Shown here one piece after another: positions 2,001 to 45,493 of a stretch of 54,539 nucleotides of DNA; within the stretch, counting starts at the first letter, position 1; each line of letters starts with the position of its first letter. The stretch lies in contig NZ_JANWVH010000009.1 in the NCBI RefSeq assembly GCF_025056915.1, positions 1 to 54,539 of the forward strand, read 5' to 3'. A model generated the notes under the pieces. The model was given only the letters and a program-made list of their open reading frames with translations, had not been told where the DNA came from and did not search any database. A program made the position numbers and the translations under genes. This stretch comes from Meiothermus sp. (lineage in GTDB: Bacteria; Deinococcota; Deinococci; Deinococcales; Thermaceae).

Positions 2001-2152
2001 CATTATCGCACTCTTCACAGACGTGGCCGCCCACGAAAACGAAAATACGTCTGGGCCGAGACGCATGTTTTCGAGTTTCCAGGCGGCCACTGTTCTATTC
2101 AGAACCAGGCTTTCTCGAACTCGAATGGCTCACAACATGTGAAGAACGCTCT
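2001..2152 (+). repeat. dispersed structured intergenic repeat, copy A
   Basis: Member of a repeat family seen six times in this window (the others start at 4944, 13396, 21556, 37700 and 45315). It opens with TTATCGCACTCTTCACAG and ends with GTGAAGAACGCT, so the ends are near inverted repeats. Internally GTGGCCGCC pairs with GGCGGCCAC, and a GTTCTATTCAGAAC palindrome is followed by a TTCTCGAACTCGAA segment. It sits between the convergent kynA and the unknown membrane protein. The rest of 1827-2170 holds only C-rich sequence with weak hairpins. Confidence 0.85.
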
Positions 2153-2170
2153 AGCTCACCGACCCTGGTA

Positions 2171-4234
2171 TTACCTGGCCCCCCTATAGACCAGCAAAAA
2201 CCAGAGCAAAAGATGAACCCCCAGCGCCACAATGGCCATCACCACGCCCCAGGCGCTTCCCAAACGCCACAACCACAAAGCGCCCACCAAGGCCAGCAGC
2301 ACCAATAGACCCCAGCCCTGGCTGTAGGTGGGGCTTCCCGGAAACAGAAGCTGAACCGCGCGCCGCCAGGCCAGGTTGCCCGCCACTCCCTGAGGCCTTG
2401 GCAGGAAGAAGCACAGGATGTGATACAGGGTGAACAGGAGGATCACAAAGGCAATCGTCCAGGCCCACAGGGCACTGGGCCAGATGGGCAGGTCGCGCCA
2501 GGCTGCCACAAAGTCGGTCACAAGACCCTGTAGCCCTCCCAGGCCGATTGTAGCAGCGATAATCCGTGGGGTTGGGACTGCCTCACGCACCACCCCGGCC
2601 TCGCGGTAGACCGAGCTCCAGAAGTCGCCGCCGATGCCCAGGGTCTCCTGCACAACTGCCGAGGCGGGCGCCCGCCGGTAGGCCTGCGCCAGGGCCTCGG
2701 GCGTCCCGCGCCCCAGCAAGACATACGTCCAGGAGGGGGCCGCTGCGTAAAGCCGCTGGGCCTCCGCTGGGTTCTCTTTGCTCAGGGCATACGCCAGCAG
2801 ACCCTGCAAGGGCGCAGAATTGGCAAGGCTGCGCAAGGTTTCCTGGGCTGCGCTCGAGCGCAGGGTACCACGGGTCAGGCTGTCCTGGGCGAGAAGCGCT
2901 TCGGAGCGGGCCATCAGGCCCCAGCCAAGCAGGGCCATTGCGGCCAGCAAAAATAAAAAGAGCAGCAAGGTGCGCTCGCCAACCGAGGTGTAGGCCAGTA
3001 CGCTATGCCGCAGGCGCAGCAGGGGATGCCTCAGCCAGCCAAGCAGCCAGCCCCCGCTGGGGCGCAGGCCGCGCAGCTGGGCCGGCAGGTACATCAGGGT
3101 CAGGTAGAGCAACATCAGGGCGTACAGCCCCAGCAAAGCCCAGGTGGCGGTGGCCATGGTGCTGGAGGTCAGGGGGTTTTGCCAGCTCTTCACCTGGCGC
3201 AGGGCCTCGCGGTAGCGGGCGCCCAGGTCGGGGCGGCCCTGGGCCTCGAGCCAGCCCACCTGCTCCCACAGCATGGCCTCTGCACCCGGTAGCTGGGGTA
3301 GATATTTGAGGAAAAAGTCCGACCAGGCCAGGCTCTGCTCCAGGCCCTGGGCGCGGGCCGCTTTGACCTGCATCAGCCAGGGCTGGAGCCACTGCATCAC
3401 ACCCTGGCCCCAGGCCAGCTCGGGGCGGTGGGAGCGCTGGAGCAGGTCCCGCCCCACCGCCGCGAGGTCGGCAGGGCCGATGCTGCCAACCGGTCGGCTG
3501 AAGTAGTACCAGTAGGGGCGGTTGGTGTCCGGGCTCTGGTCTTGCGCTGGGCTGCCTGTTGCGCTCAGGGTCTCGAAGTATTCCCGGATTACCGCCAGGC
3601 TTTCCCACCGGCCCTCGTAGGGTTTTCCCGCAAAAGCGCTCAGGGCCAGCCGCCGTCCGTCCTCGAGCAGCACCGTTAGTTCGGCATCGGCCTCCAGGGC
3701 CTGCACCTCACCCGGCGGGTAGTGCTGGGCCACCACCCTGGGGTTGAGCAGGTCTATTTCGAGCACCAGCGGCCCCCGGGCAATAAAAGCACGCTGACCC
3801 AGACGCTTGGGGCCAATCCATTGCCCTTTGAGCGGCAGCTTCCAGTCGCCCAGCACCAATCCCTCGGGCCCCAGGGTGGGCAGGGCCAGCTCAGGCCGAG
3901 CCGGTGCAGAAGGTTGGGCTGGGCCCACCGAGGGAGGCCCAGAGGGGACGGCCTGCACGCGTGTCTGCGCCTCCACCGTGCGTTCCCCTACCCGGATGCT
4001 AATCCGGTACAACCCTTCCGCAGGGGGTGTCCAGGTTGTGGCGACGCTGCCGTTGAAGGTCTCGAGGTCCACCTCGGTCGTTGTGGCATCCGAGGCAATC
4101 TTGAGGGTGTAGCGGCCTGGGGGGAAGTCTGCCCCGCGAATTTCCATTGGCTGCCCAACCTGAGCCTCGGGCGGCGCGGTCAGGCTCTGGGCCAGCGTCA
4201 CGCCAAACAGGAGAACGCCCACCATCCATCGCAT
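2171..4234 (-). CDS. secreted/membrane protein of unknown function, 687 aa
   Basis: I do not recognise a named family. The protein starts with a hydrophobic signal-like segment (VGVLLFGVTLAQS), followed by a beta-rich domain of about 80 residues in Ig-like style (PPGRYTLKIAS to EGLYRISIRVGERT). A proline-rich linker near residues 100-120 and a large soluble region to about residue 350 follow. The C-terminal half has at least five hydrophobic segments, among them TWALLGLYALMLLYLTLMYL, LLLFLFLLAAMALLGWGL, AWTIAFVILLFTLYHILCFF and two close to the C-terminus. It probably sits in the cytoplasmic membrane with the N-terminal half outside. A TAAAAT box six bases before the ATG suggests a leaderless transcript. 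Confidence 0.8.
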   Translation of the reverse strand: MRWMVGVLLFGVTLAQSLTAPPEAQVGQPMEIRGADFPPGRYTLKIASDATTTEVDLETFNGSVATTWTPPAEGLYRISIRVGERTVEAQTRVQAVPSGPPSVGPAQPSAPARPELALPTLGPEGLVLGDWKLPLKGQWIGPKRLGQRAFIARGPLVLEIDLLNPRVVAQHYPPGEVQALEADAELTVLLEDGRRLALSAFAGKPYEGRWESLAVIREYFETLSATGSPAQDQSPDTNRPYWYYFSRPVGSIGPADLAAVGRDLLQRSHRPELAWGQGVMQWLQPWLMQVKAARAQGLEQSLAWSDFFLKYLPQLPGAEAMLWEQVGWLEAQGRPDLGARYREALRQVKSWQNPLTSSTMATATWALLGLYALMLLYLTLMYLPAQLRGLRPSGGWLLGWLRHPLLRLRHSVLAYTSVGERTLLLFLFLLAAMALLGWGLMARSEALLAQDSLTRGTLRSSAAQETLRSLANSAPLQGLLAYALSKENPAEAQRLYAAAPSWTYVLLGRGTPEALAQAYRRAPASAVVQETLGIGGDFWSSVYREAGVVREAVPTPRIIAATIGLGGLQGLVTDFVAAWRDLPIWPSALWAWTIAFVILLFTLYHILCFFLPRPQGVAGNLAWRRAVQLLFPGSPTYSQGWGLLVLLALVGALWLWRLGSAWGVVMAIVALGVHLLLWFLLVYRGAR

Positions 4235-4240
4235 AGGGCC

Positions 4241-4246
4241 ATTTTA
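4241..4246 (-). promoter_or_regulatory. candidate -10 box for the 687-aa membrane protein
   Basis: TAAAAT on the minus strand, six bases before the ATG at 4234. No Shine-Dalgarno sequence fits between them, so the mRNA would begin at or next to the start codon. No convincing -35 box. Confidence 0.5.
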
Positions 4247-4356
4247 TTCCACTGCCAGGCGAGGTCTCGGCAGGGCGCCCTCCTGCAACTTCCCCCATCC
4301 AGCAGGCCAGCCAAGGCCAAATGTTGCAGCAGAAGCCGCCCAGGCGAGCCTTGTAC

Positions 4357-4362
4357 TATACT
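4357..4362 (+). promoter_or_regulatory. candidate -10 box for greA
   Basis: TATACT about 45 bases before the greA ATG, leaving a short 5' leader with a TGGAGG ribosome-binding site. The -35 region is not recognisable. Confidence 0.4.
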
Positions 4363-4406
4363 GAGGCAAAGGTCTACGGTTTGTAGACCCTTGGAGGTTT
4401 TGTTGA

Positions 4407-4886
4407 ATGTCAGAGAAAAAGCCGGTGTACCTGACCGCTGAGGGCAAAGCGAGGCTCGAGCAGGAGCTTGCCTACCTGAAGACCGAAAAAGTCCAGCAAA
4501 TCGCCGACGAAATGGGCCGGGCCATCGCCGAGGGCGACCTGCGCGAAAATGCTGGCTACGATGAAGCCCGACGGGCCATGTGGCAGAACAACAGCCGAAT
4601 TGCCGAGCTCGAGGACATTCTGAGCCGGGTGCAGATTGTCGAGTCCGGCAACGGGGTTCCCACTGAAGTGCAAATCGGGGTGACGGTCGAGCTCGAGACC
4701 TCCACCGGCCAGCGCATGAGCGTCACCATGGTCGGCAGCCACGAGGCCGACGTATTCAGCGGAAAGATTTCCAACGAGTCGCCCCTGGGTCAGGCCCTGA
4801 TGGGCAAAAAAGTGGGGGACGAGGTGCAGGTCAAAAGCCCCAAGGGCAGCCAGACCTACGTTGTGGTGGATCTGGTGTACGCCTAG
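4407..4886 (+). CDS. greA: transcription elongation factor GreA
   Basis: Rescues backtracked RNA polymerase by stimulating cleavage of the nascent RNA 3' end. 159 residues is the normal length. The N-terminal coiled coil spans about residues 1-75, and its tip carries EGDLRENAGYDEA with the two acidic residues (D and E of DLREN) that coordinate the catalytic metal. The C-terminal FKBP-like domain ends GKKVGDEVQVKSPKGSQ. The intact acidic tip argues that this is GreA, not the inhibitory Thermus paralogue Gfh1, in which the tip is rearranged. A TGGAGG site precedes the ATG. It stands alone between two unrelated genes. Confidence 0.95.
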   Translation: MSEKKPVYLTAEGKARLEQELAYLKTEKVQQIADEMGRAIAEGDLRENAGYDEARRAMWQNNSRIAELEDILSRVQIVESGNGVPTEVQIGVTVELETSTGQRMSVTMVGSHEADVFSGKISNESPLGQALMGKKVGDEVQVKSPKGSQTYVVVDLVYA

Positions 4887-4943
4887 CACGCTGCCATGGG
4901 CCGATTCACCCGTGTACAGGCCACTCGCAAGTTTTAGCCCCTT

Positions 4944-5108
4944 TTTCGCGCTCTTCACAGACGTAGCCGCCCACGAAAACGAGAAGGGACAAGTGTCTGC
5001 GTTGCGTCTGGGCCAAGACGCATGTTTTCCAGTTTCCAGGCGGCTACGGTTCTGTTCAGAACCAGGCTTTCTCGAACTCGAATGGCTCATCAGTGAAGAG
5101 CACTCTGA
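4944..5108 (+). repeat. dispersed structured intergenic repeat, copy B
   Basis: Begins TTTCGCGCTCTTCACAG and ends CAGTGAAGAGCACT, giving the clearest inverted ends of the family. Compared with copy A it has an extra internal segment (AAGTGTCTGCGTTGCGTCTGG) shared in part with copies C and F. It lies in the 500-base gap between greA and the aldolase gene; the remainder, 5109-5385, shows nothing coding. Confidence 0.85.
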
Positions 5109-5347
5109 TGGCACACCGGAGCCAACCAGGCGGTTCGGTGGCCGGCTTATTCCAACCTGGCTCGAGCCTCTGCAAATAGGGCGTTGAGGCAGGAAGCAGG
5201 GCTTGGCAGCCGGTGGAGGCACCCACCCCACACAAAGTTGCCTTTGAACCTCAGGCTGGTCTTGCTCCGAATCGGGTCTAAAGGCTGCAAGTGGACTTCC
5301 CGCCACCCCGGCTCGAGCCCGCCTGGTGCCGGGCAGCCTTCATGCGA

Positions 5348-5353
5348 TAAAAT
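5348..5353 (+). promoter_or_regulatory. candidate -10 box for the DapA-family gene
   Basis: TAAAAT 32 bases before the ATG at 5386, leaving a short leader with AAAGGAAC as ribosome-binding site. No clear -35 element. Confidence 0.4.
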
Positions 5354-5385
5354 CACCTGGTTTTGACCCAAAGGAACGCCGAACC

Positions 5386-6246
5386 ATGATCATCCCCCCT
5401 CTCCCCACCCCTTTCGATCAGAGCGGACACCTCGATGCGGAAGCCTTTCGCGACCTCGCCCAGGCCATCGAACCCCATGTGGATGGGCTGCTGTTTTACG
5501 GTTCCAACGGCGAAGGCGTTCATCTAACCCGCGAGGAGCGGGCCGCGGGGCTGGCTGTCCAGACCCCCCAGAAGCCTGCCATGGTGGGCTTGATGGAAGA
5601 AACCCTGGCCCAGGCGGCCATTGCTCTGGGTGAGGCCGAACACTTGAAGGCCAGGGTGCTGGTCACGCCCCCCCGCTACTACGAGGCCAACCTGGGCAAC
5701 GATGGCTTGTTGCGCTATTTCGGGGGCATCGCCGACATGGGCAAGGCCGAGGTCTGGCTCTACCATGTGCCGGCCAACACCAAAGCCCCGCTGCCCCTGC
5801 CGGTGGTGGCCGAGCTTTCCAAGCACCCCAACATTGGGGGCCTCAAGGACTCGAGCGGGGAGCTGGCCCGCATGGCCTTCTACGCCTCGCAAAAACTGGC
5901 CCTCGAGCTCTACACCGGCCATGCCCCCACCTTCCTGGGGGCCCTGGGTCTGGGCGCCAAGGGGGGCATCCTGGCCGTTTCCAACCTGGCCCCCAAACCC
6001 TACAAAGAGATGCTAACGCTCTGGCAGGCCGGCAAGGTCGCCGAGGCCCAGGCCCTGCAAGCGGAGGTCGAGCCCTTTGGCCGGGTGCTGGCCCAGGGCG
6101 GCTTTGTGCTGCTCAAGCAGGCCCTGCGCCATCTGGGTCTGCCCGGGGGCTACCCCCGCCCCCCTTACCCCAGCGAAAGCCCGGTCTGGCCGGCCTTCAA
6201 GCCCCTCCTGGAAGAGTTCAGGGCCCGGGGCTGGACGGTGGGATAA
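5386..6246 (+). CDS. dihydrodipicolinate synthase (DapA) family aldolase
   Basis: Class I aldolase of the DapA/N-acetylneuraminate lyase family, 286 residues, TIM barrel. It opens MIIPPLPTPF, has the substrate-loop motif YGSNGEGVHL near residue 40, the tyrosine of YHVPANT near residue 130, and the Schiff-base lysine in GGLKDSSG near residue 155. The second position of the usual G-T-T-G-E loop differs (GSNGE), so this may not be the lysine-pathway enzyme; other 2-oxo-acid aldolases of the family are possible. I chose ATG 5386 over an upstream in-frame ATG at 5326 because it follows AAAGGAACG and aligns with the family start. Confidence 0.85.
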   Translation: MIIPPLPTPFDQSGHLDAEAFRDLAQAIEPHVDGLLFYGSNGEGVHLTREERAAGLAVQTPQKPAMVGLMEETLAQAAIALGEAEHLKARVLVTPPRYYEANLGNDGLLRYFGGIADMGKAEVWLYHVPANTKAPLPLPVVAELSKHPNIGGLKDSSGELARMAFYASQKLALELYTGHAPTFLGALGLGAKGGILAVSNLAPKPYKEMLTLWQAGKVAEAQALQAEVEPFGRVLAQGGFVLLKQALRHLGLPGGYPRPPYPSESPVWPAFKPLLEEFRARGWTVG

Positions 6247-6303
6247 GGTTGAAATAACCGCACCTGCGCACAGGCATCCGGTAAGCTCGGTTTGGAGGAA
6301 ACC

Positions 6304-7089
6304 ATGAAGGGCATCTCACTGTGGGTATGGTTGGGTCTGGCTCTCGCACTGGGCGCTTGCGTGCCGCAGGCCGTGCGGCCCCAGGCCCCGCAGGTCGAGC
6401 TGTTGCAGTTCAACCTGGTTTCCATTGACCCCTTCAGCGGGCGGGGCGAGTTTGACGTGCGCCTGCGCCTGACCAACCCCAACGGCTTCACCCTGCCCCT
6501 GCTGGACAGCACCCTGACGGCAGAGCTGGGGGGCTCGCAGTTTCGCCTGACCCTACCCGCCCTGGAAATCCCCTCAGGCGCCAGCCGCGACACCAGCACC
6601 CGCCTGGTGGTGCCCATCGTGGAGGGCACCCGCGCCCTGGCCAGCCTGGTGGGCGGACAGAGCACCCGTTTTCGTCTGTTGGGTGAGTTGCGGGTTCAAC
6701 TGGGCCCGGCGGTGGTGCCGATTGGGCCTGTAACCCTGGTCGACCGCGATGTGCGCATTCAGTTTTCTTTCCAGCTTCCAATCATTCGGCTGGCCGAGAT
6801 TCGCCTGGAGGGGCTGGCCATCCGGCTGGTCTTGGAGGTGGAGAACCCCAACCCCATCGGTTTTACCCTGGAAGGCCCCCTGCGTATTTTGGTCGGCGGA
6901 CGCAGCGTGGCCGAGAGTGCGCTCAACCTGGGCTTGGGCCCCAACGGACGCAACCGGGGCGAGTTGCGTCTTTCGCTCTCGGGGCTGCCGGGCGTGGGCG
7001 GCGTGAGTGTGGATTTGGGCCTCAGCGCCCGCATTCCGGGTATTCTGGAGCGCTCGGTCGCCCAGGTGCTTCAGGGACTTCTGCGCTGA
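6304..7089 (+). CDS. LEA14-like (LEA type 2) lipoprotein
   Basis: A 261-residue lipoprotein. The signal peptide [13 protein letters not shown] ends in a lipobox (LGAC), so the mature protein is anchored by lipid on the cell envelope. It contains two copies of a beta-sandwich resembling LEA14/water-stress domains: [20 protein letters not shown] (about residues 45-65) and [19 protein letters not shown] (about 175-195), both with the N-P-N-x-x-x-F signature. The start at ATG 6304 follows GGAGGAAACC. Its exact role is unknown; relatives are linked to desiccation or envelope stress. Its last 68 bases overlap the 3' end of the convergent dihydrouridine synthase gene. Confidence 0.85.
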
Positions 7090-7978
7090 GCAGGGCTTGC
7101 CGCAGTTCCCTGAGGGTGGACACCTGTTTGAGCACGGGATGGAGTGCTGGGATTGCCGGGAAATAGCGGTAGAGTACCTTGCGAAGCTGGCGAAGGCCAT
7201 TGAACTCGCCGTACCACTGCACATTGAGCTCTGCGTGTCGCAGCGCAGTCTGGATGCGCTCCTGGAGGGTCGGGGCAGGTGTGCCTGAGGCAATCTGCCG
7301 AAAAATCCAGGGGTTGCCTACCGCGCCCCGGCCAATCATGACCCCGGCCACGCCAGTCTCGAGGCGCTGGAAAAATCCCTCACACGTAGTCACATCGCCC
7401 GAACCCAGCACCGGCACCCGCACAGCCTGGGCCACCCGGCCAATGGCCTCCCAGTTGGCCAGCCCCGCATAGCGCTGGCGGCTGGTGCGCCCGTGCACGG
7501 TGATAAGGGCCACCCCGGCGGCCTCCAGGCCCTGGGCCACCTCCAGGCTCCCGTCTTCGTCCCAGCCCAGGCGAATCTTGGCGCTGACCTCGAGGCCCGT
7601 CCCCTGCCGCATGGCCCGCACCAGCTCAAAGGCCCGCTCAGGGGTTTGCAGCAAACAGGCCCCGCCCCGCCCGGCCAGCTTGGGCGCGGGGCAGCCCATG
7701 TTCAGGTCCAGCGCCACCGGCGAAAAGAGCGCCTCGGCTTTGGCGGCGGCATCGCGCAAAACCTCGGGGTCGTCGCCAAAAAGCTGCACCACCAGGTTGG
7801 GCTCCCCCGGATAAGGCGCCCCCAGCTCGGTGGATTTGCGCTCGCCGGCCAATAACCCCCGGGCCAGCACCATCTCGCTGACCGTCCAGGCCGCCCCGTG
7901 TTCCAGGGCCAGCCGCCGAAAGGGCGCGTCGGTATAGCCGGCCATGGGGGCCAGCACGGCCCTGGGGCTCCGGAGCAT
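7022..7978 (-). CDS. dus: tRNA-dihydrouridine synthase
   Basis: FMN-dependent reductase that makes dihydrouridine in tRNA. The N-terminal TIM barrel shows the FMN-binding [32 protein letters not shown] with the catalytic cysteine of the GRGGACLL-type loop, the phosphate-binding [17 protein letters not shown] and [11 protein letters not shown]. The sequence is closer to DusB than to the DusA type of Thermus. The likely start is ATG 7978 ([14 protein letters not shown]); the longer frame to 8059 would run into hutH. The 3' end overlaps the convergent lipoprotein gene by 68 bases. Confidence 0.9.
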
Positions 7979-8045
7979 CTCCCGGTAAAAGGGGGTCTTG
8001 GGCGTTGCCGTCGCAACCACAACCTGCACAGTATAAGGGCTTGCC

Positions 8046-9566
8046 CTACACCAACGCACCCACGGCTTGCTCGGCCACCGCCACCAGCTCCCCCGTGCGA
8101 ATCAGCTCGCACAGCCTGAGCAGCTCGGGCTTCAGGTAGCGGTCGCGGTCCAGGTGGGGAATCTCCTGCCGGATGCGCCGCCAGACTGCCTCCACCCCCC
8201 TGCCGGGCCGCAGAGGGGCGTGGAAGTCGAGGGCCTGGGCCGCAGAGGCCAGCTCGATGGCCAGCACCCAGAGGGTGTTCTCGAAGATGCTGCGGGCCTT
8301 GCGGCAGGCGATGGTGCCCATCGAGACGTGGTCTTCCTGGTTGGCGCTGGTGGGAATCGAGTCCACCGAGGCCGGGTGGGCCAGTACCTTGTTCTCGCTG
8401 ACCAGCGCGGCGGCGGTGTACTGGCTGATCATCAGCCCCGAGTTCAGGCCGCTGCCCTCGGCCAGAAAGGCCGGCAGGCCCGAGAGCGCCGGGTTCAGCA
8501 TCTGCTCGATGCGCCGCTCGGCGATGTTGGCCAGCTCGGCCAGGGCGATGCCGGCGTAGTCGGCGGCCAGGGCCAGGGGCTGGCCGTGGAAGTTGCCCGC
8601 CGAGAGGGTGCGCCCCTCTTCGGGCAACACCAGGGGGTTGTCGGTCACGCTCTGCATCTCCCGGAGCACCACCTCCCGCACGTGCGAAAGGGCATCGCGG
8701 CTGGCCCCGTGCACCTGGGGGGCGGCCCGCAGGCTGTAGGCGTCCTGCACCTTGTCGCAGTCGATGTGCGAGCGCATAATCTCGGAGTCTTGCAGCAGCT
8801 TGCGCACGTTGGCGCTGCTGGCGCTCAACCCCGGGTGGGGGCGGAGCCTCGCCACCGCCTCGTCGAAGGGCCGGTGGCTTCCCTTGAGGGCCTCCACGCT
8901 CATGGACAGCGCAATATCGGCGGTTTTGAGCAGCACCTCGGCGTCCAGGAGCAGGAGGGCCAGCAGGGAGGTCATGGCTTGGGTGCCATTAATAAGGGCC
9001 AGGCCCTCTTTGGCCTCGAGCTCCAGCGGCGCCACCCCATATTCCCGCAGCACCTCCCCCGCAGGCCGCACCCGCCCTTTATGGAGCACCTCCCCCTCGC
9101 CAATCAGCGGCAGGCACATATGGGCCAGGGGGGCCAGGTCGCCCGAGGCCCCCACCGAGCCCTGGGAGGGCACCACCGGCAGGATGTCCTGGTTGAGGAA
9201 CCATAAGAGCCGCTCCACCACCTCCACCCGCACCCCGGAGTAGCCCAGGGCCAGACTCTGGGCCCTGAGCAGGAGCATCCCCCGCACCACCTCGACGGGG
9301 AAAGGCTCCCCCACCCCGATGGCATGGGACAGGAGCAGGTTGCGCTGCAAGAGTTTCAGGTCGCCACGCGCAATGCGCACCGAGGCCAGCTTGCCGAAGC
9401 CGGTGTTGAGGCCATAGACCGGCTCTCCCTGTCGCACCAGGGTATCCACAAAGGCACGGCACCCTTCAACCCGTTTTCGCGCCGCGTCGGAAAGCCCAAC
9501 GGGCTCTTTTTGACGAACGACCCGGCGGAAGTCCGGCAGATTCAGTTGAAAGTCGAGTTCCAGCAT
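8046..9566 (-). CDS. hutH: histidine ammonia-lyase
   Basis: Deaminates L-histidine to urocanate, the first step of histidine degradation. 506 residues, normal length. The self-forming MIO cofactor site is intact in [14 protein letters not shown] (Ala-Ser-Gly) near residue 145; [11 protein letters not shown] near residue 50 and the [13 protein letters not shown] active-site segment near residue 390 are present. The ATG follows AAGGTGAAAC. No other hut genes are in the window, so the rest of the pathway must lie elsewhere. 67 bases separate it from the downstream dus gene, so the two may be co-transcribed. Confidence 0.95.
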
Positions 9567-9957
9567 GTTTCACCTTTTTGCATGGTACGCCAACGAAACC
9601 TCGAGAATGGGCCACGCTGGGCTTTGCTTGTAGAAGCGCAGTGGCCTGTGTTGGGTTGTCCGGGTCCTCGGAGCTTCGATGGGCAGAGGCTCGTACTTCT
9701 GGCCAGGGAGCGAAAACCAAAGACGAAACGCCCGCGCTCGTCTAGCTGCCATTGAGTTGATACCCTCCTGGCTTGAGCACTTTACAAACTTCGGAAGCGG
9801 CGGTAGGTGGCGGTGGCCCACCGACAACGACCCACCCTCAGCTCGAGAATCGTTCGAGGTCGGTTGTACACCGAAGGTTGGCCATACTCTTCTGGCACAG
9901 CAGGCAAGGGGCTCCAGGGCCATCCTGTCCACACTATTTGGTACACTCGAGGCTCCT
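9567..9957. other. 391-base intergenic region between divergent hutH and the hydrolase gene
   Basis: No gene is supported. It must hold the divergent promoters. On the plus strand TTGTAC (9864) and CATACT (9883) are too close for a normal promoter pair, and I cannot choose a convincing one. A C/G-rich weak hairpin lies near 9805-9840. Confidence 0.5.
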
Positions 9958-13213: not shown

Positions 13214-13397
13214 AAATCCCCTCAAAGTGACCCCTAAAGCCAGAATAGGGCTATGTAAGGTGTCATTCCGAGTGCAGCGAGGAATCCGTACGCGCTACCG
13301 TCCCCCGCATTCACCACCCCTGTAAGTATCAGATTCCTCGTCGCACTGCGTGCTCCTCGGAATGACAGCACAAATCCCCTCAAAGCGAGGCCTAAAG
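13214..13397 (+). repeat. imperfect 27-bp direct repeats flanking a palindromic element
   Basis: CAAATCCCCTCAAAG is followed in one copy (13214-13240) by TGACCCCTAAAG and in the other (13371-13397) by CGAGGCCTAAAG: three mismatches in 27 bases. They bracket the GTCATTCCGAG element exactly, and the right copy runs straight into repeat copy C. Confidence 0.8.
13261..13368. repeat. GTCATTCCGAG-type palindromic repeat element
   Basis: The left arm starts TGTCATTCCGAG and continues GCGAGGAATC; the right arm has GATTCCTCG and ends CTCGGAATGACA. The arms are complementary, so the whole unit of about 108 bases can fold into one large hairpin. The right arm is longer (an extra TCGCACTGCGTGCTC). Elements with this GTCATTCCGAG..GAGGAATC sequence are, from general knowledge, scattered through many bacterial genomes as non-autonomous repeats. 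Confidence 0.8.
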
Positions 13398-13589
13398 CGC
13401 TCTTGACATTTTATGAGCCACTCGAGTTCGAGAAAGCCTGGTTCTGAACAGAACAGTGGCGGCCTGGAAACTCGAACACATGCGTCTTTGCCCAGACGCA
13501 ACGCAGACAAGCCTGCCTCACAGGGTGAGGCACGTCTCTTTGTCCTTTCTCGTTTTCTTGGGCGGTCACGTCTGTGAAGAGCGCGATAG
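13396..13589 (-). repeat. dispersed structured intergenic repeat, copy C (full length)
   Basis: Longest copy, in reverse orientation between the convergent DsbA-like and amidase genes. Ends are AGCGCTCTTGAC and GTGAAGAGCGCG. It carries the internal hairpin GCCTCAC..GTGAGGC that is missing from copies A, D and E and only traced in B. The remaining stretch 13590-13671 has a short hairpin (ACTCGG/CCGAGT at 13645-13660) and no gene. Confidence 0.88.
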
Positions 13590-13671
13590 GTGTTACCTCG
13601 TCGTAGATTTGGCATACCACCCACCACCCACTCCCACCTTTTTTACTCGGATACCCGAGTCTGGATAACCT

Positions 13672-21555: not shown

Positions 21556-21650
21556 TTATCACGCTCTAAACAGACGTGGCCGACCACGAAAACGAGAATC
21601 CGTCTGGGCCAAGACGCATGTTTTCGAGTTTCCAGGCGGCCACGGTTGCA
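21556..21650 (+). repeat. dispersed structured intergenic repeat, copy D (truncated)
   Basis: Begins TTATCACGCTC and keeps GTGGCCGACCACGAAAACGA and the pairing GGCGGCCACGG, but breaks off before the GTTCTGTTCAGAAC palindrome. Located between the convergent kynB and nuoN genes. Confidence 0.8.
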
Positions 21651-36358: not shown

Positions 36359-36898
<540 letters not shown>

Positions 36899-36964: not shown

Positions 36965-36971
36965 CGCATGG

Positions 36972-37418: not shown

Positions 37419-37446
37419 ATCTTACACTTTCACATTCACGACGCAA
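37419..37446 (-). promoter_or_regulatory. candidate promoter of the nuo operon
   Basis: On the minus strand TTGCGT (37446-37441), 16 bases, then TAAGAT (37424-37419), leaving a leader of about 80 bases before nuoA. It is the best candidate in the 545-base gap between nuoA and clpX. Confidence 0.45.
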
Positions 37447-37699
37447 ATATCGTTCAGAAAAATTTTACTTTTCGCGGCCCGCCCACACTGTAGACCAGGC
37501 TCTTAACATCATGCTGCTGGGCTCAGGTGGCGGCCCCATCCACCCGCTGCCCTTGTGTTTCTTTCCGACCATTCCAGAGGAGCAGCCATCGTCAACCATC
37601 GCTTCACCAAGAGGGGGAGCGCTTCAGAGCGGTCAGACAAGGAAAAAATCTCTTTCGGATCAGGGCGTGCACCTCGCTTCACATTCGCAGCCTTGGTGC

Positions 37700-37771
37700 G
37701 AGAATGCCTGGTTCTGAACAGAACAGTGGCCGCCTGGATGGGCGGCCACGTCTGTGAAGAGCACGATAACC
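37700..37771 (-). repeat. dispersed structured intergenic repeat, copy E (internal deletion)
   Basis: Read on the minus strand: TTATCGTGCTCTTCACAG, GTGGCCGCCCATCC, GGCGGCCAC, then GTTCTGTTCAGAACCAGGC. The hairpin loop has been lost, leaving a nearly minimal stem. The rest of 37447-37876 shows no supported gene. Confidence 0.82.
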
Positions 37772-37876
37772 TGGTTAGATAAACTTCCCGTCCGTCAAGG
37801 GTCCGAGTAACTGAAATTCTGGCCCAGATGGCCTGAAGGCTCAGTTTTGGGGCCTCCCGCTCGTCGTTCTGTATGT

Positions 37877-39073: not shown

Positions 39074-39647
39074 GGCTAACCACCTGGTCTACCAACCCGT
39101 AGCCAGCAGCCTCTTCGGCGGTGAGGTAGTAGTCTCGTTCGGTATCGCGCTCCACCTTTTCCAAAGGCTGCTTGGTGTGGCGGGCGATGATGTTGTTGAG
39201 CACCTTGCGGGTCTTGAGGATTTGTTCGGCCTGGATGGCAATATCGGTGGCCTGTCCACCCAACCCCCTGGCCCAGGGCTGGTGAATCATGACCTTGGAG
39301 TGCGGCAGTGCATAGCGCTTGCCGGGTTCACCCGCCGCCAGCAGAACCGCACCCATCGAGGCAGCCAGCCCAACGCAAATGGTCGAGACCGGGGCCGAAA
39401 CAAACTGCATGGTGTCGTAAATGGCCAGCCCCGCATCCACATCACCCCCTGGCGAGTTGATGTACATGCGGATTTCCTGATTGGGATTTTGCGCAGCCAG
39501 AAATAGAATTTGCGCCACAATGGTGTTGGCCACCTGTGCGTCTATGGGCGTGCCCAGGAAAATAATGCGATCCTTGAGCAGGCGGCTGTAGATGTCGTAA
39601 ACGCGTTCACCGCGGGCAGTCTGTTCGATGACGTAGGGAACTACCAT
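39060..39647 (-). CDS. clpP: ATP-dependent Clp protease proteolytic subunit ClpP
   Basis: Serine protease that forms the 14-mer chamber, 195 residues. Catalytic serine in [14 protein letters not shown] near residue 94, histidine in MIHQPWARG near residue 119, aspartate in [11 protein letters not shown] near residue 168. The -10 box TAAAAT stands nine bases before the ATG with GGAG between. Confidence 0.96.
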
Positions 39648-39656
39648 ATCGGCTCC

Positions 39657-39662
39657 ATTTTA
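39657..39662 (-). promoter_or_regulatory. -10 box of clpP-clpX
   Basis: TAAAAT on the minus strand nine bases before the clpP ATG, so the transcript would start only a few bases upstream of the gene. CTCTTG 16 bases further up is a weak -35. Confidence 0.45.
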
Positions 39663-39820
39663 TGCCTGAATGCAGGGTCAAGAGGGGGTTGGCGCACATA
39701 AAGAAGCTTTGGGCAGCGACCGGCGATGGATGGTGTCGCCCAATGACTGCGCCAAAACTGCGGACTACAGCGCGTTTGGTTCTTTCTGGCTGAGACTCTC
39801 AGCCCACAGTCCCTTGCTGC

Positions 39821-41035
39821 TCAGCCTTCAATTCGGCTCACAGCCTCCAGCAGGGCTTTGTCGTGTAGACGCTGGATCCGAAGGCGGGCTATGGTGCCCT
39901 GGCCCAGTTCGCTTTGCAGGCGGGCCGGCGTAGTCCGGTAGGCTCGGGCCACCTCGCTCAGGTACTCTTCAAACTCCTCCTGGCTCAGGTCAGTTTTGAG
40001 TTCCTCGGCCAGGGCCTCCACCGCCAGCGAACGACGCAGGCGCTTGGCCGCGTTCTCGCTGAGGTTTTGCTTGAACTCCTCGAGCTTCCCTTCCTTCTCG
40101 AGCTGAGCCAGAAATTCGCTCAGTTCAAGTTTTTGCTCCTTGAGTTCGCCAGCCAGATTTTCCAGCAGGCTTTGCTCCTCGCGCGCCTGCATGGTGGGTG
40201 GAATTTGCACCTCGAGGGCCTCGGCCAGCTTGTCCAGCAGTTGATTGGCCTTGGCGTTGCGGACCTCGCGTTCAAACTGGGCCTGGAGGCTTTCCCGCAC
40301 CTTGCGGGTCAGGGCTTCCAGGTTGTCTTCACCCACCGTCTTGGCGAACTCGTCGTCCAGCTCGGGCAGTTGCAGGGTCTTGACCTCCAGCACCTTGGTT
40401 CGGACTTCGCGCACAACGGTTTCGCCGTCCTTAACCGGCACCATCACCTCGTCGCCGGCTTTCTTGCCCAGCAGGGCTTCGCGCACGTGGGGCTGGGCGT
40501 TTTCCATTACCACCGGGAAGCGACCGCCGTCCTCGGTCTCGATGAACACATTGTCTTTTTCCTGGGCTTCCCGTTCTACCGCCACCATTTCGCCGTAGCG
40601 GGTGCGCAGGTCGTCCAGGGCACGGCTCACCACCTCGTCGGTTACTTCGGGGGTTTCGACCTCGAGCTTGAAGTTTTGCCAGTCCGGCAGCTTGACTTCG
40701 GGATAGTTTTCAATCTCGACCGTATAGACGTAGGGCTGTCCAAAGGTCAGGCTTTCCTCGAGTACCCGCGCGCCCACCGGCAGCAGCGACAGCTCCCGGG
40801 CCGCCTTGGGGAAGGTCTCGTCGCGCAGAACTTCCTTGACCTCATCGAGGAGCGATTCCTTGCCGATTCTGGCCTCGATGACCTTGGCCGGGGCCTTCCC
40901 GGCACGAAAACCGGGTAGCTTGACCCGCCCGGCATAGTTGTTCAGCACCTCTCGATAGGTTTGCTCGACCTGGCTGGCCGGAACCTCTACCTTGATTTTC
41001 ACCTTGTAGCCTTCGCGTTCCAGAATTTCTGCCAC
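39821..41035 (-). CDS. tig: trigger factor
   Basis: Ribosome-associated chaperone, 404 residues. The N-terminal ribosome-binding domain contains the loop LPGFRAGKAPAKVIEARIG near residue 40 (family GFRxGKxP). The middle PPIase domain (about 155-235) shows KDNVFIETEDGG, and a long helical C-terminal domain rich in Glu, Leu and Lys follows. GTG start with CGAGGTG upstream. It lies 173 bases from clpP in the usual tig-clpP-clpX order. Confidence 0.95.
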   Translation of the reverse strand: MAEILEREGYKVKIKVEVPASQVEQTYREVLNNYAGRVKLPGFRAGKAPAKVIEARIGKESLLDEVKEVLRDETFPKAARELSLLPVGARVLEESLTFGQPYVYTVEIENYPEVKLPDWQNFKLEVETPEVTDEVVSRALDDLRTRYGEMVAVEREAQEKDNVFIETEDGGRFPVVMENAQPHVREALLGKKAGDEVMVPVKDGETVVREVRTKVLEVKTLQLPELDDEFAKTVGEDNLEALTRKVRESLQAQFEREVRNAKANQLLDKLAEALEVQIPPTMQAREEQSLLENLAGELKEQKLELSEFLAQLEKEGKLEEFKQNLSENAAKRLRRSLAVEALAEELKTDLSQEEFEEYLSEVARAYRTTPARLQSELGQGTIARLRIQRLHDKALLEAVSRIEG

Positions 41036-41754
41036 AACACACCTCGAGTCCGACCCTGGGGGTCGCCAAGAGCCTAGTGTACAACCAGCCAGCGGGATTT
41101 AGATACACCCCCGGGCTCCTATCACATGGTGGGTCGCGCCCGATCGCAACCCCTCCACCGGCCAGCCCCCTTCCACGTAGTTGTGACCTCAAACACACAG
41201 TTGTAAAGATACCCATACACGCCCACAGGAGATTGATAGCCCTCAACCCCCTCCCGACCGCGTAGAGAGGGTTGGGGAAGGTATTTGCCAAGGCCCTCAA
41301 TGATTGCATGAAGGGCCAGGTCAGCCACCCCACCGGGCCCCTGCGAGGTAGGGAAGAAATCGAACGAAGCCGGGCTAGGACTATTTCCCTAACACTGCGG
41401 GGGTGGCTGTACGGGCTTTTATGCAACACGGCACTAAAGGCCATCGGTCAAAATGCAGGAACAGGCATGGCCTGATTGGGCCCCTGAATCGCTGGTTCTC
41501 TCAAAAGCGGGTGGCCATCTTGCGTTTTGAGCCCCTTGTGGTCATGCGCTGTGGCTGCCTCGAGCCTGCAAAACACCCCAGGGGTGGAAAGTCATTTCCC
41601 GTGCAGTTCAGGGGGGAGTGCAGCCAGCGACAAATACAGAGCCTGTCCCTCTGGGCTGCGCCTGGGCAGAGCAAGGAGGGTGGCTTTTTGTGGGACAACT
41701 GACCCTACATACCCCCCACAGGTATGAAGTACCTTGAAAACCAAGGAGTTAGCC
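41036..41754. other. 719-base intergenic region between tig and the flavoprotein gene
   Basis: No gene can be supported; short frames on both strands lack a plausible start and family similarity. One inverted repeat is seen near 41250-41280 (CCTCAACCCCCTC / GAGGGTTGGGG). It must contain the divergent promoters of tig and the flavoprotein gene. Confidence 0.5.
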
Positions 41755-42963
41755 ATGAAAACCATCCTGGTAATCGGAGGAAATTTCGGCGGGATGACCA
41801 GCGCATTCGAGTTAAAGCGCAAGCTGCGCAACGAGGCTCGAGTGGTGGTGGTCTCGAGGCAGAAGGAGTTTGTGTACATCCCCTCGCTAATCTGGGTTCC
41901 CTTTGGTCGCCGCAAGGTTTCAGACATCACTTTCGACGCAGAAAGCACCTTCCGCCGCGGGGGCATCGAGTTTATCCTGGGCGAAGCCACCCAGATCAAA
42001 CCCGAGGAAAACCAAGTGATGCTGGCCGATGGAACCGTCCTGGACTACGACTTCCTGGTCATCGCCACCGGCGCCAAGCTGGCCTGGGACGCGGTGCCGG
42101 GCCTGGGGCCCAAAGGGTACTCGCACTCCATCTTCACCCCGCCCGACGCTGAAAAGACCTACGAAGCCTACAAGAAATTCCTGGAAAACCCGGGCCCTGT
42201 GGTGATTGGCGCCGTTCCGGGAGCGAGCTGTATGGGGGCCGGCTACGAGTACCTGTTCAACTTCGACCATCAGGTTCGCAAAGCCGGCAAACGCAACCAG
42301 GTCAGCATTACCTGGGTCACGCCCGAACCCAAGCTCGGCCACTTTGGAATTGGCGGCATGACCGGCGGCGAGGCCATGCTCAAAATGTTCCTGAAGATGC
42401 AGGGCATTGACTACCGCGTCAATGCGGCCATTACCGAGGTACGCCCCGATGGGGTGGTGCTCGCTAGCGGCGAGGTGCTGCCCTCCAAGTTCACCATGCT
42501 GGTTCCCCCCTTCGAGGGCGTGGAGGTGATGCAAAAAACCCCCGAGCTGGTGGATGCCAAGGGCTTTGTAGAGGTCTCCGACGGCTACCAGAGCACCCGC
42601 TATCCCAATATCTTCGCAGTTGGGCTGGCCGCCAAAGTGCCCAACCCCTTCAAGGGCGATGTGGCTTTTGGGGTGCCCAAGACCGGCTTCCCCACCGACG
42701 AGATGGCCAAAACCGCAGCCGCCAACATCCGCGAAATCCTCCACGGCAACGTCAACAACCTGCACTGCAAATCCTTTGGCAGCATGCCGGCGGTCTGCGT
42801 GATGGATGCCGGCAATAAAGAGGTCGTCATCCTGGGCAACCACCTCTTCCCACCCCGCCAGTTCCAGGTCATGCTGCCCAACGTGCTGGGCGACTTCAAC
42901 AAGGTACTGGTGGAAAAAATGCTTCTGCTCAAGTATCGCAACGGCTGGTCCTTCCTGCCATAA
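41755..42963 (+). CDS. sulfide:quinone-reductase-like flavoprotein (NDH-2/SQR family)
   Basis: FAD-dependent two-dinucleotide-fold oxidoreductase, 402 residues, probably bound to the inner face of the cytoplasmic membrane and passing electrons to quinone. FAD motif VIGGNFGGMTSAFEL at the start, LVIATGAK near residue 105, PNIFAVGLAAKV near residue 285. The SQR-type segment GASCMGAGYE holds Cys159; further cysteines lie at 338 and 348 (VCVMDAG). The position of the first SQR cysteine (SICT-like) reads SIFT, so sulfide oxidation is likely but not certain; a type II NADH dehydrogenase is the alternative. The ATG follows AAGGAGTTAGCC. Confidence 0.82.
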   Translation: MKTILVIGGNFGGMTSAFELKRKLRNEARVVVVSRQKEFVYIPSLIWVPFGRRKVSDITFDAESTFRRGGIEFILGEATQIKPEENQVMLADGTVLDYDFLVIATGAKLAWDAVPGLGPKGYSHSIFTPPDAEKTYEAYKKFLENPGPVVIGAVPGASCMGAGYEYLFNFDHQVRKAGKRNQVSITWVTPEPKLGHFGIGGMTGGEAMLKMFLKMQGIDYRVNAAITEVRPDGVVLASGEVLPSKFTMLVPPFEGVEVMQKTPELVDAKGFVEVSDGYQSTRYPNIFAVGLAAKVPNPFKGDVAFGVPKTGFPTDEMAKTAAANIREILHGNVNNLHCKSFGSMPAVCVMDAGNKEVVILGNHLFPPRQFQVMLPNVLGDFNKVLVEKMLLLKYRNGWSFLP

Positions 42964-42979
42964 AAGTCCCTTAGTGGCA

Positions 42980-43006
42980 CCCCTCTCCCGACGGGAGAGG
43001 GGTTTT
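42980..43006 (+). terminator. rho-independent terminator of the flavoprotein gene
   Basis: CCCCTCTCCCG pairs with CGGGAGAGGGG, followed by TTTTGT; 17 bases after the stop codon. Confidence 0.9.
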
Positions 43007-43240
43007 GTCAGAATTGTTCTGATGGCACGTTTTGCTTCCGCTGTCATCTTTGCTCAAGCGCTCTGCAAACCAGGAGCGCTGAGGCGGGGAGCAGGGGCGG
43101 GAGACCGACGGCCACCCATGCACAACGTAGGGCTACTTGAACGCGTATTGTTGGCCTAAAGCTAGTGTGGTGCGCGAAGCTTGCAGGAAATCCACTCGAG
43201 GTCTATTCCAGCCATCCGCAGCTTGCGCCTGGCAAAATCA

Positions 43241-43279
43241 AGCTCGAAAAATCGAGAAACCCCGGTATCCTCCGGGGTT
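43241..43279 (-). terminator. rho-independent terminator of the tRNA operon
   Basis: On the minus strand AACCCCGG pairs with CCGGGGTT, then TCTCGATTTTT. Begins four bases after the CCA end of tRNA-Leu. Confidence 0.85.
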
Positions 43280-43282
43280 CGG

Positions 43283-43367
43283 TGGTGCGCGGAGGGGGAC
43301 TTGAACCCCCACACCTTGCGGCACAAGATCCTAAGTCTTGCGTGTCTACCAGTTCCACCATCCGCGC
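43283..43367 (-). tRNA. tRNA-Leu (anticodon UAG)
   Basis: 85 bases including an encoded CCA. The acceptor stem GCGCGGA pairs with TCCGCGC. The anticodon stem CAAGA/TCTTG encloses the loop CTTAGGA, giving anticodon TAG followed by G37, so it reads CUA-family leucine codons. A long variable arm (TGCCGCAAGGTGT) and the T-arm GGGGGTTCAAGTCCCCC confirm a class II tRNA. Confidence 0.95.
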
Positions 43368-43426
43368 AGGTTGATTGGGATTCGGGGACAGAGGGATCAC
43401 CGCACCCTGCCCCCGATTCCCTGTGT

Positions 43427-43504
43427 TGGGGTGAGCGATGGGACTTGAACCCACGACCCCCGGTTCCACAGACCGGTGCTCTAACCGGCTGAGCTACGCT
43501 CACC
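43427..43504 (-). tRNA. tRNA-His (anticodon GUG)
   Basis: 78 bases including the extra G-1 and encoded CCA. The acceptor GTGAGCG pairs with CGCTCAC, with G-1 opposite C73 as required for histidine identity. The anticodon stem CCGGT/ACCGG encloses CTGTGGA (anticodon GTG). The T-arm GTGGGTTCAAGTCCCAT is normal. Lies 59 bases upstream of tRNA-Leu in the same operon. Confidence 0.95.
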
Positions 43505-43524
43505 GCGTCGCGGCAGCAGAAGGT

Positions 43525-43553
43525 ATTGTAGGCTTCGCACTCCTTAGCGTCAA
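43525..43553 (-). promoter_or_regulatory. promoter of the tRNA-His/tRNA-Leu operon
   Basis: Minus strand TTGACG, 17 bases, TACAAT, about 20 bases before tRNA-His. The best match to a sigma-70 consensus in the window together with the tetR promoter at 43680. Confidence 0.85.
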
Positions 43554-43679
43554 GAAGGGTTGGCAAGGCGCCGGGCTCGACCGAATGCACCTAGCTCCCC
43601 TACCACCTGGGGAAGCGCGAACCCAGCACATGACAGGCGCTTGGGCTATGGGTGCAGTTCAAAAATTGAGCCCTTGTCG

Positions 43680-43708
43680 TTGACGCAGCAATATGCAGCC
43701 TCTATACT
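43680..43708 (+). promoter_or_regulatory. promoter of the TetR gene at 43719
   Basis: TTGACG, 17-base spacer, TATACT. Predicted start of transcription near 43715, only a few bases before the GTG codon. Confidence 0.8.
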
Positions 43709-43718
43709 CTGCGCCAAG

Positions 43719-44357
43719 GTGTCAAACAATCGTTCGTTTGAAGAGGTCAAGACCGAAAAAGCCAGTCGTCGTGACGAAATACTGGACGCAGCAGGTCAAC
43801 TTTTCAGCCGTCAGGGTTTTCATGCCACCTCCATGCGCGACCTGGCCCGAGCGGTGAATCTGCAGGGGGGCAGCCTGTACGCCCACATCGAGTCGAAGGA
43901 AGAGGTCTTGTTCGAGCTGGTCAACCGCGCAGCCGATGAGTTTTTGAATCATGCAGAGGCGATTCCGGCAAACCTATCCCCTAAGGAGCACCTCGAGCGC
44001 CTCATCCAGGGACACCTCGAGGTCATCGTGCGCTCGCTCGACCATGCCACCGTCTTCTTCCACGAATGGAAATTCCTCAACCCCGAGCTGCAAAGAAAAA
44101 TCACCGCCCGCCGCGATGCTTACGAGGGCCACTTCCGCAAGGTTATTGAGGCCGGGGTCAGGTTGGGAGAGTTTGAGGTTGAAGATGTGCGGCTGGCAAC
44201 CTTATTTGTGCTGTCTGCGCTGAACTGGACCTATCACTGGTACCGGCCCGGCGGCCCGCTCACCCTCGAGTCGCTCTCGAGACACTACCGCGACCTGGTA
44301 TTCAAAACCCTGGGCGTACGGTCAAACCGTTCCACGAGCCGAGCAAATGGGGCCTGA
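43719..44357 (+). CDS. TetR/AcrR family transcriptional regulator
   Basis: DNA-binding repressor of 212 residues. The helix-turn-helix lies near residues 20-65 (ILDAAGQLFSRQGFHATSMRDLARAVNLQGGSLYAHIESKEEVL split over several helices), followed by an all-helical ligand domain. The C-terminal part (HATVFFHEWKFLNPELQ) resembles regulators of fatty-acid or phenylacetate catabolism (FadR/PaaR-like). I chose GTG 43719 because the promoter's -10 box ends ten bases before it. An 18-base near-palindrome covers codons 2-8, suggesting autoregulation. The target genes are not in the immediate neighbourhood. Confidence 0.88.
   Translation: MSNNRSFEEVKTEKASRRDEILDAAGQLFSRQGFHATSMRDLARAVNLQGGSLYAHIESKEEVLFELVNRAADEFLNHAEAIPANLSPKEHLERLIQGHLEVIVRSLDHATVFFHEWKFLNPELQRKITARRDAYEGHFRKVIEAGVRLGEFEVEDVRLATLFVLSALNWTYHWYRPGGPLTLESLSRHYRDLVFKTLGVRSNRSTSRANGA
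43723..43740 (+). promoter_or_regulatory. probable autoregulatory operator of the TetR gene
   Basis: CAAACAATC/GTTCGTTTG, seven of nine positions paired, a few bases past the predicted transcription start and overlapping the first codons. From memory the Thermus PaaR site is CNAACGNNCGTTNG; this sequence matches nine of its ten fixed positions. Confidence 0.5.
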
Positions 44358-44423
44358 GTTATCCCAACCATGCGTGTACGGGCAACGTACAGGGACACAA
44401 AAGGGGGGGTCGGTAGGTTGTGA

Positions 44424-45062
44424 CTAAACCCCTGGATGGCTGCCCCGGCCCGAGCCATCCTCCAGGGCAAACTCCAGGGCCATCCTCCAGGCCAGCTGTT
44501 CGTGTTGCAATACCTGGCCGACCACCCAGTCCACTTCCTCCAGCGGGAGTTGCTCGCAAACCTCCAGCGCCAGGCTGCCGAAGTCGTGAATCAGCGCCTG
44601 GGCTTCGGGGGCCATCCAGTGCTGGGCAATTTCCTCGGCCAGCCCGCTCAGCGGCGCTTGCGCCGTGTTCGGCTGGAGGGAACTCAAGGCATCCAGAAAA
44701 GCCCGATAGCGGGCCCAGTGGGCCACTATACCCATTGCATAGGGGGCCTGTTCGAGGCTCTGGATAAAGTGAATGTACCTCATACGAAGGGGGTGGATGG
44801 ATGCTGGGGGTAGCTCGAGGCTGGCCAGCCAGTCCAGCTCTTCTACCGTGACCAAAAGTGCATTGACCATAATCAGGCGGTGTTGCTGCGGCGCACGACA
44901 CAACAGCGACGCCTGGAGACCCAGCAAGGCCTCGTACAGGTACTGCTCCTGCACCAACCAGCGCTCAAAGACAAGGCTCGAGACCATCCCCTGGCGCAAA
45001 AGGTTCAGGAAGGGCTGCTCGGTGAGCGTAGCCCAGCCCCTGAAACCCCGCAGGTCAATCAC
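44424..45062 (-). CDS. TenA/thiaminase-II-like protein
   Basis: All-helical haem-oxygenase-fold protein of 212 residues resembling the TenA/THI-4/PqqC group: PFLNLLRQGMVSSLVFERWLVQEQYLYEALLGLQASLL near residues 18-55 matches the family N-terminal region. TenA enzymes release or salvage the thiamin pyrimidine, but the active-site cysteine of classical TenA is not obvious here and no thiamin gene or TPP riboswitch is nearby. Another substrate is therefore possible. GTG start at 45062; no good ribosome-binding site. Convergent with the TetR gene. Confidence 0.65.
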   Translation of the reverse strand: MIDLRGFRGWATLTEQPFLNLLRQGMVSSLVFERWLVQEQYLYEALLGLQASLLCRAPQQHRLIMVNALLVTVEELDWLASLELPPASIHPLRMRYIHFIQSLEQAPYAMGIVAHWARYRAFLDALSSLQPNTAQAPLSGLAEEIAQHWMAPEAQALIHDFGSLALEVCEQLPLEEVDWVVGQVLQHEQLAWRMALEFALEDGSGRGSHPGV

Positions 45063-45314
45063 AACTTAAAGCCTGAGGCCAAAAAGGCCCAATGGGTGTG
45101 CGTAGGGCTAAGATTGAAGGCACAAAAACCTTCATTCCGCCGCAAACCGTGATTGAGTTACATTTCGGGCCGGATGCCAGTTTCGCACAGCCCAGTACAG
45201 CTCACCCATCCATGCATAGCGGTCTAGCCCACCTCCCTCCCGGGCCGTGCAAAGGTAGCCCACCCACGCAAGCCGCCGCGGCCTGACCCCGTTGTTTGAA
45301 GAAACTACTGGTCC

Positions 45315-45493
45315 AGAGCGCTCTTTATGAGCCATTCGAGTTCGAGAAAGCCTGGTTCTGAACAGAACAGTGGCCGCCTGGACACTCGAAAACATGCGTC
45401 TCGGCCAAGACGCAACGCAGACAAGCGTGCCTCACCGAGGTGAGGCACGTCTCTCGTTTTCGTGAGCGGCCAGGTCTGTGAAGAGCGCGATAA
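45315..45493 (-). repeat. dispersed structured intergenic repeat, copy F (full length)
   Basis: Reverse orientation. Outer ends AGAGCGCTCTTTATG and GTGAAGAGCGCG; contains both the GTTCTGTTCAGAAC palindrome and the internal hairpin GCCTCAC-CGAG-GTGAGGC. It lies in the 597-base gap between the divergent TenA-like and EF-G-2 genes; the rest of that gap (45063-45314, 45494-45659) has no supported gene. Confidence 0.88.

Follow-up and report, generated by a model that had tools for sequence, protein, structure and literature searches.

A TA-flanked family of small repeats with modular hairpin arms in Meiothermus, probably a miniature inverted-repeat transposable element

The Correia (NEMIS) repeats of Neisseria also exist in a shorter form with an internal deletion. 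In the passages of PMC2229807 that deal with them, these repeats have TA at their termini, a terminal inverted repeat (TIR) and a stem-loop. The same passages describe RUP of Streptococcus pneumoniae, a miniature inverted-repeat transposable element (MITE) of IS630-Spn1, as a 107 bp intergenic element with a TA target, inverted ends, a stem-loop and 108 copies; an excerpt of PMC3049150 adds that RUP is AT-rich and has ends like those of an IS630 element of the same species. In that excerpt, the BOX element of S. pneumoniae is modular, with outer modules, a variable number of inner ones and a predicted stable fold. The small noncoding repeats (SNR) of Deinococcus radiodurans are short and mosaic, with 295 copies of at least nine types, in the part of PMC1978522 that treats them. 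Here, we describe a repeat family of Meiothermus sp., six copies of which lie in a stretch of 54,539 nucleotides (NZ_JANWVH010000009.1, assembly GCF_025056915.1; "the window"). The window is one entire contig of a 3.02 Mb draft genome. "Own" denotes the genome that holds the window, G-numbers denote genomes and L-numbers loci.

The Meiothermus element is a real, fairly ordinary mobile element with an unusually modular build. Because of its copy number, its inverted ends, the duplicated TA with empty sites and the patchy occurrence among relatives, we propose that it is very probably a MITE that inserts at TA, with a transposase supplied in trans and most likely of the IS630/Tc1-mariner type. 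This agrees with the first alternative of an earlier note on this DNA, a non-autonomous mobile element. By analogy, the element would work in the manner of RUP and Correia, which parts of PMC2229807 and PMC3049150 portray as MITEs that are flanked by TA and form hairpins. It differs from RUP in that it is GC-rich, has nested arms and has no partner that we could find, and from Correia in its many independent hairpin arms. In BOX one module is repeated in tandem, whereas the Meiothermus element has distinct hairpins in a fixed order, each present or absent. The likeness to RUP, Correia, BOX and SNR is drawn from their published descriptions. In the literature searched, including parts of PMC6352166, PMC10130571 and PMC10969869, no description of this MITE family turned up, which is no proof of its absence from print.

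All six window copies were found again and can be aligned with one another, and the six-copy family of the earlier note proves to be part of a large, genome-wide one. The pattern TCGCGCTCTTCACAGACGTGGCCGCC, with up to three mismatches, marks 180 five-prime ends in the own genome (83 forward, 97 reverse) and none in the reversed control. At about 150 bp each, these copies would make up an estimated 0.9% of the genome, a major repeat of this Meiothermus lineage. Within the genus, a 28-base form is present in 10 of 18 genomes (170 copies in the own genome, then 82, 34, 34, 31, 15, 8, 5, 2 and 1), with a control of 0 in all. Across the order, a degenerate pattern matches 13 of 111 genomes, all of one family (11 in this genus and one each in two sister genera); the large genus g4, with 27 genomes, has no match. 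A DNA search across the family gave matches in 13 of 50 genomes. Among named genomes, the exact 26-base end pattern returned four stretches, only from Meiothermus granaticius NBRC 107808 and an uncultured Meiothermus metagenome-assembled genome, where records near the own genome were possibly left out. The plasmid collection held no match to the element. For 64 of 66 own copies the nearest relative lies within the same genome, as it does for 13 of 14 copies in G015 and 11 of 12 in G005. The element also breaks assemblies, several contigs starting within a copy, and coincides with several synteny breaks.

We extracted 193 copies or partial copies, 164 of them with both ends (73 own, 91 from other genomes; four places, L013, L016, L139 and L181, are double-counted among these spans). 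The borders read TA-TCGCGCTCTTCACA...TGTGAAGAGCGCTC-TA. The inverted ends claimed by the earlier note are borne out as imperfect TIRs of about 14 bp, in which 12 pairs have 90.7% and 91.1% of cells paired in the core-only and arm-bearing alignments, respectively. In copies with both ends, TA stands at the 5' end in 56/73 own and 75/91 other copies, at the 3' end in 56/73 and 81/91, and at both ends of one copy in 44/73 and 66/91; the anchoring patterns contained TA, so these counts are biased upward, while the neighbouring bases lay outside the patterns. Of the own copies that keep the 5' TA, 45 of 56 have a pyrimidine (Y) before it, as do 64 of 75 in other genomes, and a purine (R) follows the kept 3' TA in 45 of 56 own copies. 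By these flanking counts, own copies target YTAR and those of other genomes YTA. In part of PMC2170065, 34 of the 39 insertions reported for ISY100, an element of IS630 type, had a normal TA duplication, and the title of a reference cited there states that an IS630 composite transposon prefers TA within CTAG.

When the joined flanks of the 164 spans were used as queries, ten matched across the joint, and three of these can be interpreted as empty sites. One is orthologous: a 354-bp copy in G007, with nested repeats, corresponds to GGCACGC-TA-TTTGAAAG in G018, and the flanks are 97.6% identical over 500 bp without a gap. Two are paralogous: the own copies L097 and L016 lie within repeats whose other copies are empty, and the break falls at the dinucleotide. 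Since the TA-flanked ends and the empty sites show insertion at the dinucleotide, they argue for a MITE that targets TA as IS630/Tc1 elements do. Duplication of the target and occupancy that differs between relatives, to both of which the earlier note had looked as signs of mobility, are therefore seen. Six other cross-joint matches were dismissed as self matches, partial or too complex. At L013, a single TA is common to two copies, and at L032 a copy makes use of the TA at the end of another repeat. At the site of window copy D, G013 and G015 are without the element, though the entire intergenic stretch differs there.

Inside the ends, the main stem GTGGCCGCC/GGCGGCCAC is followed by a small hairpin and then the 3' end. 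Optional arms are set within the main stem in the fixed order A, h, B, D (nested in B) and C (Table 1). With arm thresholds of our own, which miss decayed arms, 146 of the 164 spans fall into 15 combinations: 46 copies are armless, and the commonest of the 14 other classes are AB (23), B (18), BC (17), AhB (16), AC (6) and AhBDC (5). Lengths in the own genome cluster at about 98-109, 146-151, 156-167 and 179-198 bp. In all, 158 of 164 spans measure 85-287 bp and are gene-free (no protein search was made of the element itself); the six that exceed this length contain two copies, nested repeats or an end that was paired wrongly. The palindrome core GTTCTGTTCAGAACCAGGC occurs five times in the window with up to three mismatches, against 0.01 expected, and copy D stops upstream of it. 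Of the earlier description of D and E as truncated or internally deleted, the loss of the 3' part stands for D, but E is not simply a local deletion product: its form, of about 106 bp and with the main stem closed directly, recurs as a length class in several genomes. The extra inner hairpin described for C and F is present in both. We rejected the hairpin modules as independent repeats. Matches outside detected ends number 3/84 for h, 4/58 for C, 0/7 for D and 15/200 for B, where palindromic modules may count on both strands, and, with all but one B match inspected, they mostly resemble decayed, nested or oppositely read copies, and some resemble chance matches in genes. Arms in a fixed order, and copies of the full form in G015 and G020, would fit a long ancestor from which arms were lost as units; gain is also possible. 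The arm combinations make such gain or loss of hairpins directly testable. At L261:1501-1527 (G015), a copy is reduced to its two ends, TATCGCGCTCTTCACAAGAGCGCTCTA.

The main stem covaries between lineages, its two sides changing in step. It reads GTTGCCGCC/GGCGGCAAC in G007 and G018, GTGGCCTCC/GGAGGCCAC and GTTGCCTCC/GGAGGCAAC in G005, the latter also in G003, and ATTGCCTCC/GGAGGCAAT in G001; the variant of window copy B is given in Table 1. In the core-only alignment (29 copies), stem pairing is 97.3%. The covariation score of the whole structure is 0.128 against 0.067 when shuffled (0/500 reach it) and at most 0.077 when slid, and doubly changed cells are as high in 0/500 shuffles. Pairs with changes on both sides number five, which 72/500 shuffles reach, and the count of further pair types is reached by 310. 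When shuffles are kept within each genome, 44 doubly changed stem cells stand against a mean of 36.4 (1/1000 reach). In the arm-bearing class (18 sequences) covariation is weak, with two doubly changed pairs against 2.2 shuffled (412/500 reach), eight such cells against 4.1 (4/500) and a score of 0.082 against 0.066 (0/500); here, RNAalifold favoured partly different inner pairs. In own copies, by contrast, 54 stem cells are broken, 19 are of wobble type and 4 are doubly changed (shuffle mean 1.25; 23/1000 as high). This stem count and that with shuffles kept within each genome dropped 41 of the 193 copies (35 without both ends or with more than seven mismatches, six without the right arm) and located the right arm partly via its own consensus. 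Compensatory change, the lack of which would be a refutation according to the earlier note, is thus found between lineages but is mostly lacking in the own genome.

The paired changes may instead reflect DNA hairpin-templated correction during replication rather than selection on the fold, an explanation that we hold to be possible, if somewhat unlikely. In core-only copies the stem loop is found in either orientation, CATCCAG or CTGGATG (a rough letter test counts 31 copies as forward, 6 as inverted and 7 as other), which points to flipping of the hairpin at the DNA level. Such correction would have to be rare, because uncompensated stem changes in the own genome far exceed compensated ones.

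Several observations weigh against a MITE that depends on an IS630-type partner and inserts at TA. No transposase with matching ends was found among the transposase families searched, which were only some of those known. DDE_3 has 72 matches in 14 of the 18 genus genomes, and the search used gave none in the own genome; DUF4096 has 117 matches in 17 of the 18, three of them own. No matching end pair was seen around the gene at 30 of the DDE_3 matches and 30 of the DUF4096 matches, in draft genomes that break at repeats. To the upward bias of the TA counts must be added that R after the 3' TA is weak outside the own genome (47/81). Each of the three interpretable empty sites has one dinucleotide decayed or variant: the filled G007 site now has CT at its 5' end (TA at the 3' end), L097 is CA...TA when filled with TA or CA in its empty paralogues, and L016 is TA...TA when filled and CA when empty, its left-hand match being only 12 bases. 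A further candidate, L137 against L113, was set aside as not clean, with 14 further bases missing. Finally, the nearest relative lies within the same genome for only 10 of 16 copies in G007, 2 of 15 in G020 and none of 7 in G013. Recent amplification is therefore not general; some lineages have amplified copies, while others keep older ones.

The full-length element with the same ends and a transposase that the earlier note envisaged was not met at the DDE_3 and DUF4096 loci inspected. A partner would be expected to end in TATCGCGCTCTTCACA / TGTGAAGAGCGCTCTA. Scans for the ends at transposase loci gave single weak matches, except at L235, which has a MITE copy nearby, and at L257, which contains one. 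IS630-like and IS5-like elements with readable borders were rejected as partners, since inverted repeats beside TA and aligned copy borders both show other ends (e.g. CCAA-TCT-CGAGGTGACAC in G015). End patterns without the usual following G gave 15 matches, 13 of which are intact, decayed or cut MITE copies; L261 consists of ends only, and at L262 an end gives way to unrelated sequence. None qualifies as an insertion sequence over the 200 bases or so that were read inwards. The partner transposase may be lost, unassembled or of another family. Insertion sequences of IS427 type have TA targets, and a different TA-duplicating DDE transposase, such as one of the IS5/IS427 group, might move the element. 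The DUF4096 matches, in the own genome and across the genus, could supply such an enzyme, but the lack of matching ends at those examined and the different reading of alignable copy borders make this quite unlikely.

It is very improbable that the copies form a structured RNA family, the second alternative of the earlier note, and serve the host at each locus. Folding is strong, with z -3.1 for copy B and z -8.9 for the long 282-nt form L139 (-153.3 kcal/mol as RNA), the main stem covaries between lineages, and doubly changed own stem cells are slightly above the shuffles. However, paired and unpaired positions differ similarly, as in near-neutral decay. In 13 own copies of one exact length, differences are 57/1066 at paired and 75/1053 at unpaired positions (p 0.11), and in 12 of a second exact length 51/984 and 86/1332 (p 0.21); in these two sets, stem constraint on individual own copies is slight and not significant. 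Rfam gave no match for the window at gathering score or for seven loci at E up to 1, most stem changes in own copies lack compensation, and occupancy varies between relatives. High copy number, palindromes and intergenic position would also suit a REP/REPIN-like palindrome mobilised by a single-strand (Y1) enzyme. This is hardly credible, as that mechanism is not expected to produce inverted ends and a duplicated TA, and the empty sites indicate TA duplication.

Because the stem covaries between lineages, yet paired and unpaired positions decay alike within a genome, the fold, if it matters, is most simply taken to serve the spreading founder and not each inserted copy. One could go further and picture a DDE-type miniature transposon that relies on its own hairpin tree to spread: stem-keeping founders multiply, inserted copies decay, arms are traded or lost as units, and the fold is a selected transposition signal. 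We put this forward tentatively and think it unlikely as a whole. Setting lineage covariation against copy-level decay offers a simple means of telling whether bacterial MITEs are selected for transposing or for a role in the host.

For the MITE that we favour, a transposase supplied in trans would recognise the imperfect inverted ends of about 14 bp. Insertion at TA, within YTAR for own copies, would leave TA on both sides. The GC-rich stem between the ends bears none to several further hairpin arms, always in the same order. Slippage or recombination across hairpins may remove these arms, and their loss or exchange as whole units gives the discrete length classes. Spreading founders would retain the fold, and inserted copies would drift.

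Placement was assessed for 55 copies, from the window and 20 own stretches chosen for holding copies, with a home-made hexamer gene caller; copies listed under another locus, among them window copy B, were excluded. Of these copies, 54 are intergenic, in DNA that is about 83% coding. Both neighbours were called for 48. Convergent genes flank 15 of these, where the share of intergenic bases would predict about 6, and divergent genes flank 3, where it would predict about 11.5. By the same gene calls, and by the gene list for B (gap 4886 to 5386), all six window copies lie between genes, as had been claimed. Their density, one per 9 kb, is above the genome mean of about one per 17 kb (180 ends in 3.02 Mb). 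Eight of ten neighbouring window proteins match ordinary Pfam families (e.g. GreA, ClpX-like AAA and elongation factor G); Pfam gave no match for the other two.

Table 1. Copies of the element in the window, parts of copy A, the altered stem of copy B and the optional arms. Refined copy limits take in the flanking TA wherever it is kept.
Feature	Position in window	Strand	Remarks
Copy A	2004-2153	+	Arm class B; full length; TA at both ends
Copy A, 5' TIR TCGCACTCTTCACA	2006-2019	+	Partner 2138-2151
Copy A, main stem, left arm GTGGCCGCC	2023-2031	+	
Copy A, main stem, right arm GGCGGCCAC	2082-2090	+	
Copy A, small hairpin GTTCTATTCAGAAC	2092-2105	+	
Copy A, 3' TIR TGTGAAGAACGCTC	2138-2151	+	Partner 2006-2019
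Copy B	4944-5107	+	Arm class AB; terminal TAs decayed
Copy B, main stem			Both sides altered: GTAGCCGCC / GGCGGCTAC
Copy C	13393-13588	-	Arms A, extra hairpin and B
Copy D	21557-21650	+	Arm class B; 3' part lost
Copy E	37668-37768	-	Core-only class; 3' end decayed
Copy F	45314-45492	-	Extra hairpin and B arm; 3' end slightly shortened
Arm A			GGGACAA...TTGTC
Extra hairpin h			GTGCCTCACC/GGTGAGGCAC
Arm B			TGCGTCTGG/CCAGACGCA; arm D nested inside
Arm C			CCCAAGC...GCTTGGG

Gene order around several window copies differs between genomes. For each of A, B and F, the genes that flank the copy map to different locations in G015. G018 has the block from A to B in opposite orientation relative to the gene that follows B. 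Synteny with five relatives stops just before copy E. A copy at a synteny break is no rule: G015 also breaks at about 4258-4345, without any copy. Two tRNA genes lie at 43286-43367 and 43430-43503 on the minus strand of the window.

Other repeats accompany the element. A second small family of 73-117 bp has ends, TATCGYGTTTCCCAC...GTGGGAACCGCTCTA, styled like those of this MITE; it is found at L032:1382-1498, L083, L133, L141, L143, L144 and L219, several of its copies inside or beside MITE copies. Nested repeats TACCAGATTCGG... and AGGATTCAAAAAGA...CTTTTTGAATCC within or around copies (L126:6805-7158, L134, L172) suggest one or two further TA-flanked families. Copy C is bordered by CCAAATCTACGACGAGGTAACAC (window 13589-13618; L056, L067). 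This sequence closely resembles the inverted ends that a 1.1 kb element has in G015, an element with a weak DDE_3 match and adjoining TA, which suggests a further mobile family in this genome. At 13261-13368 of the window, the inverted pair TGTCATTCCGAG (13261) / CTCGGAATGACAG (13356) is apparently another MITE-like repeat. A dispersed own-genome repeat of at least 200 bp, present at about 41203-41434 of the window and at many own loci, is the target of some insertions.

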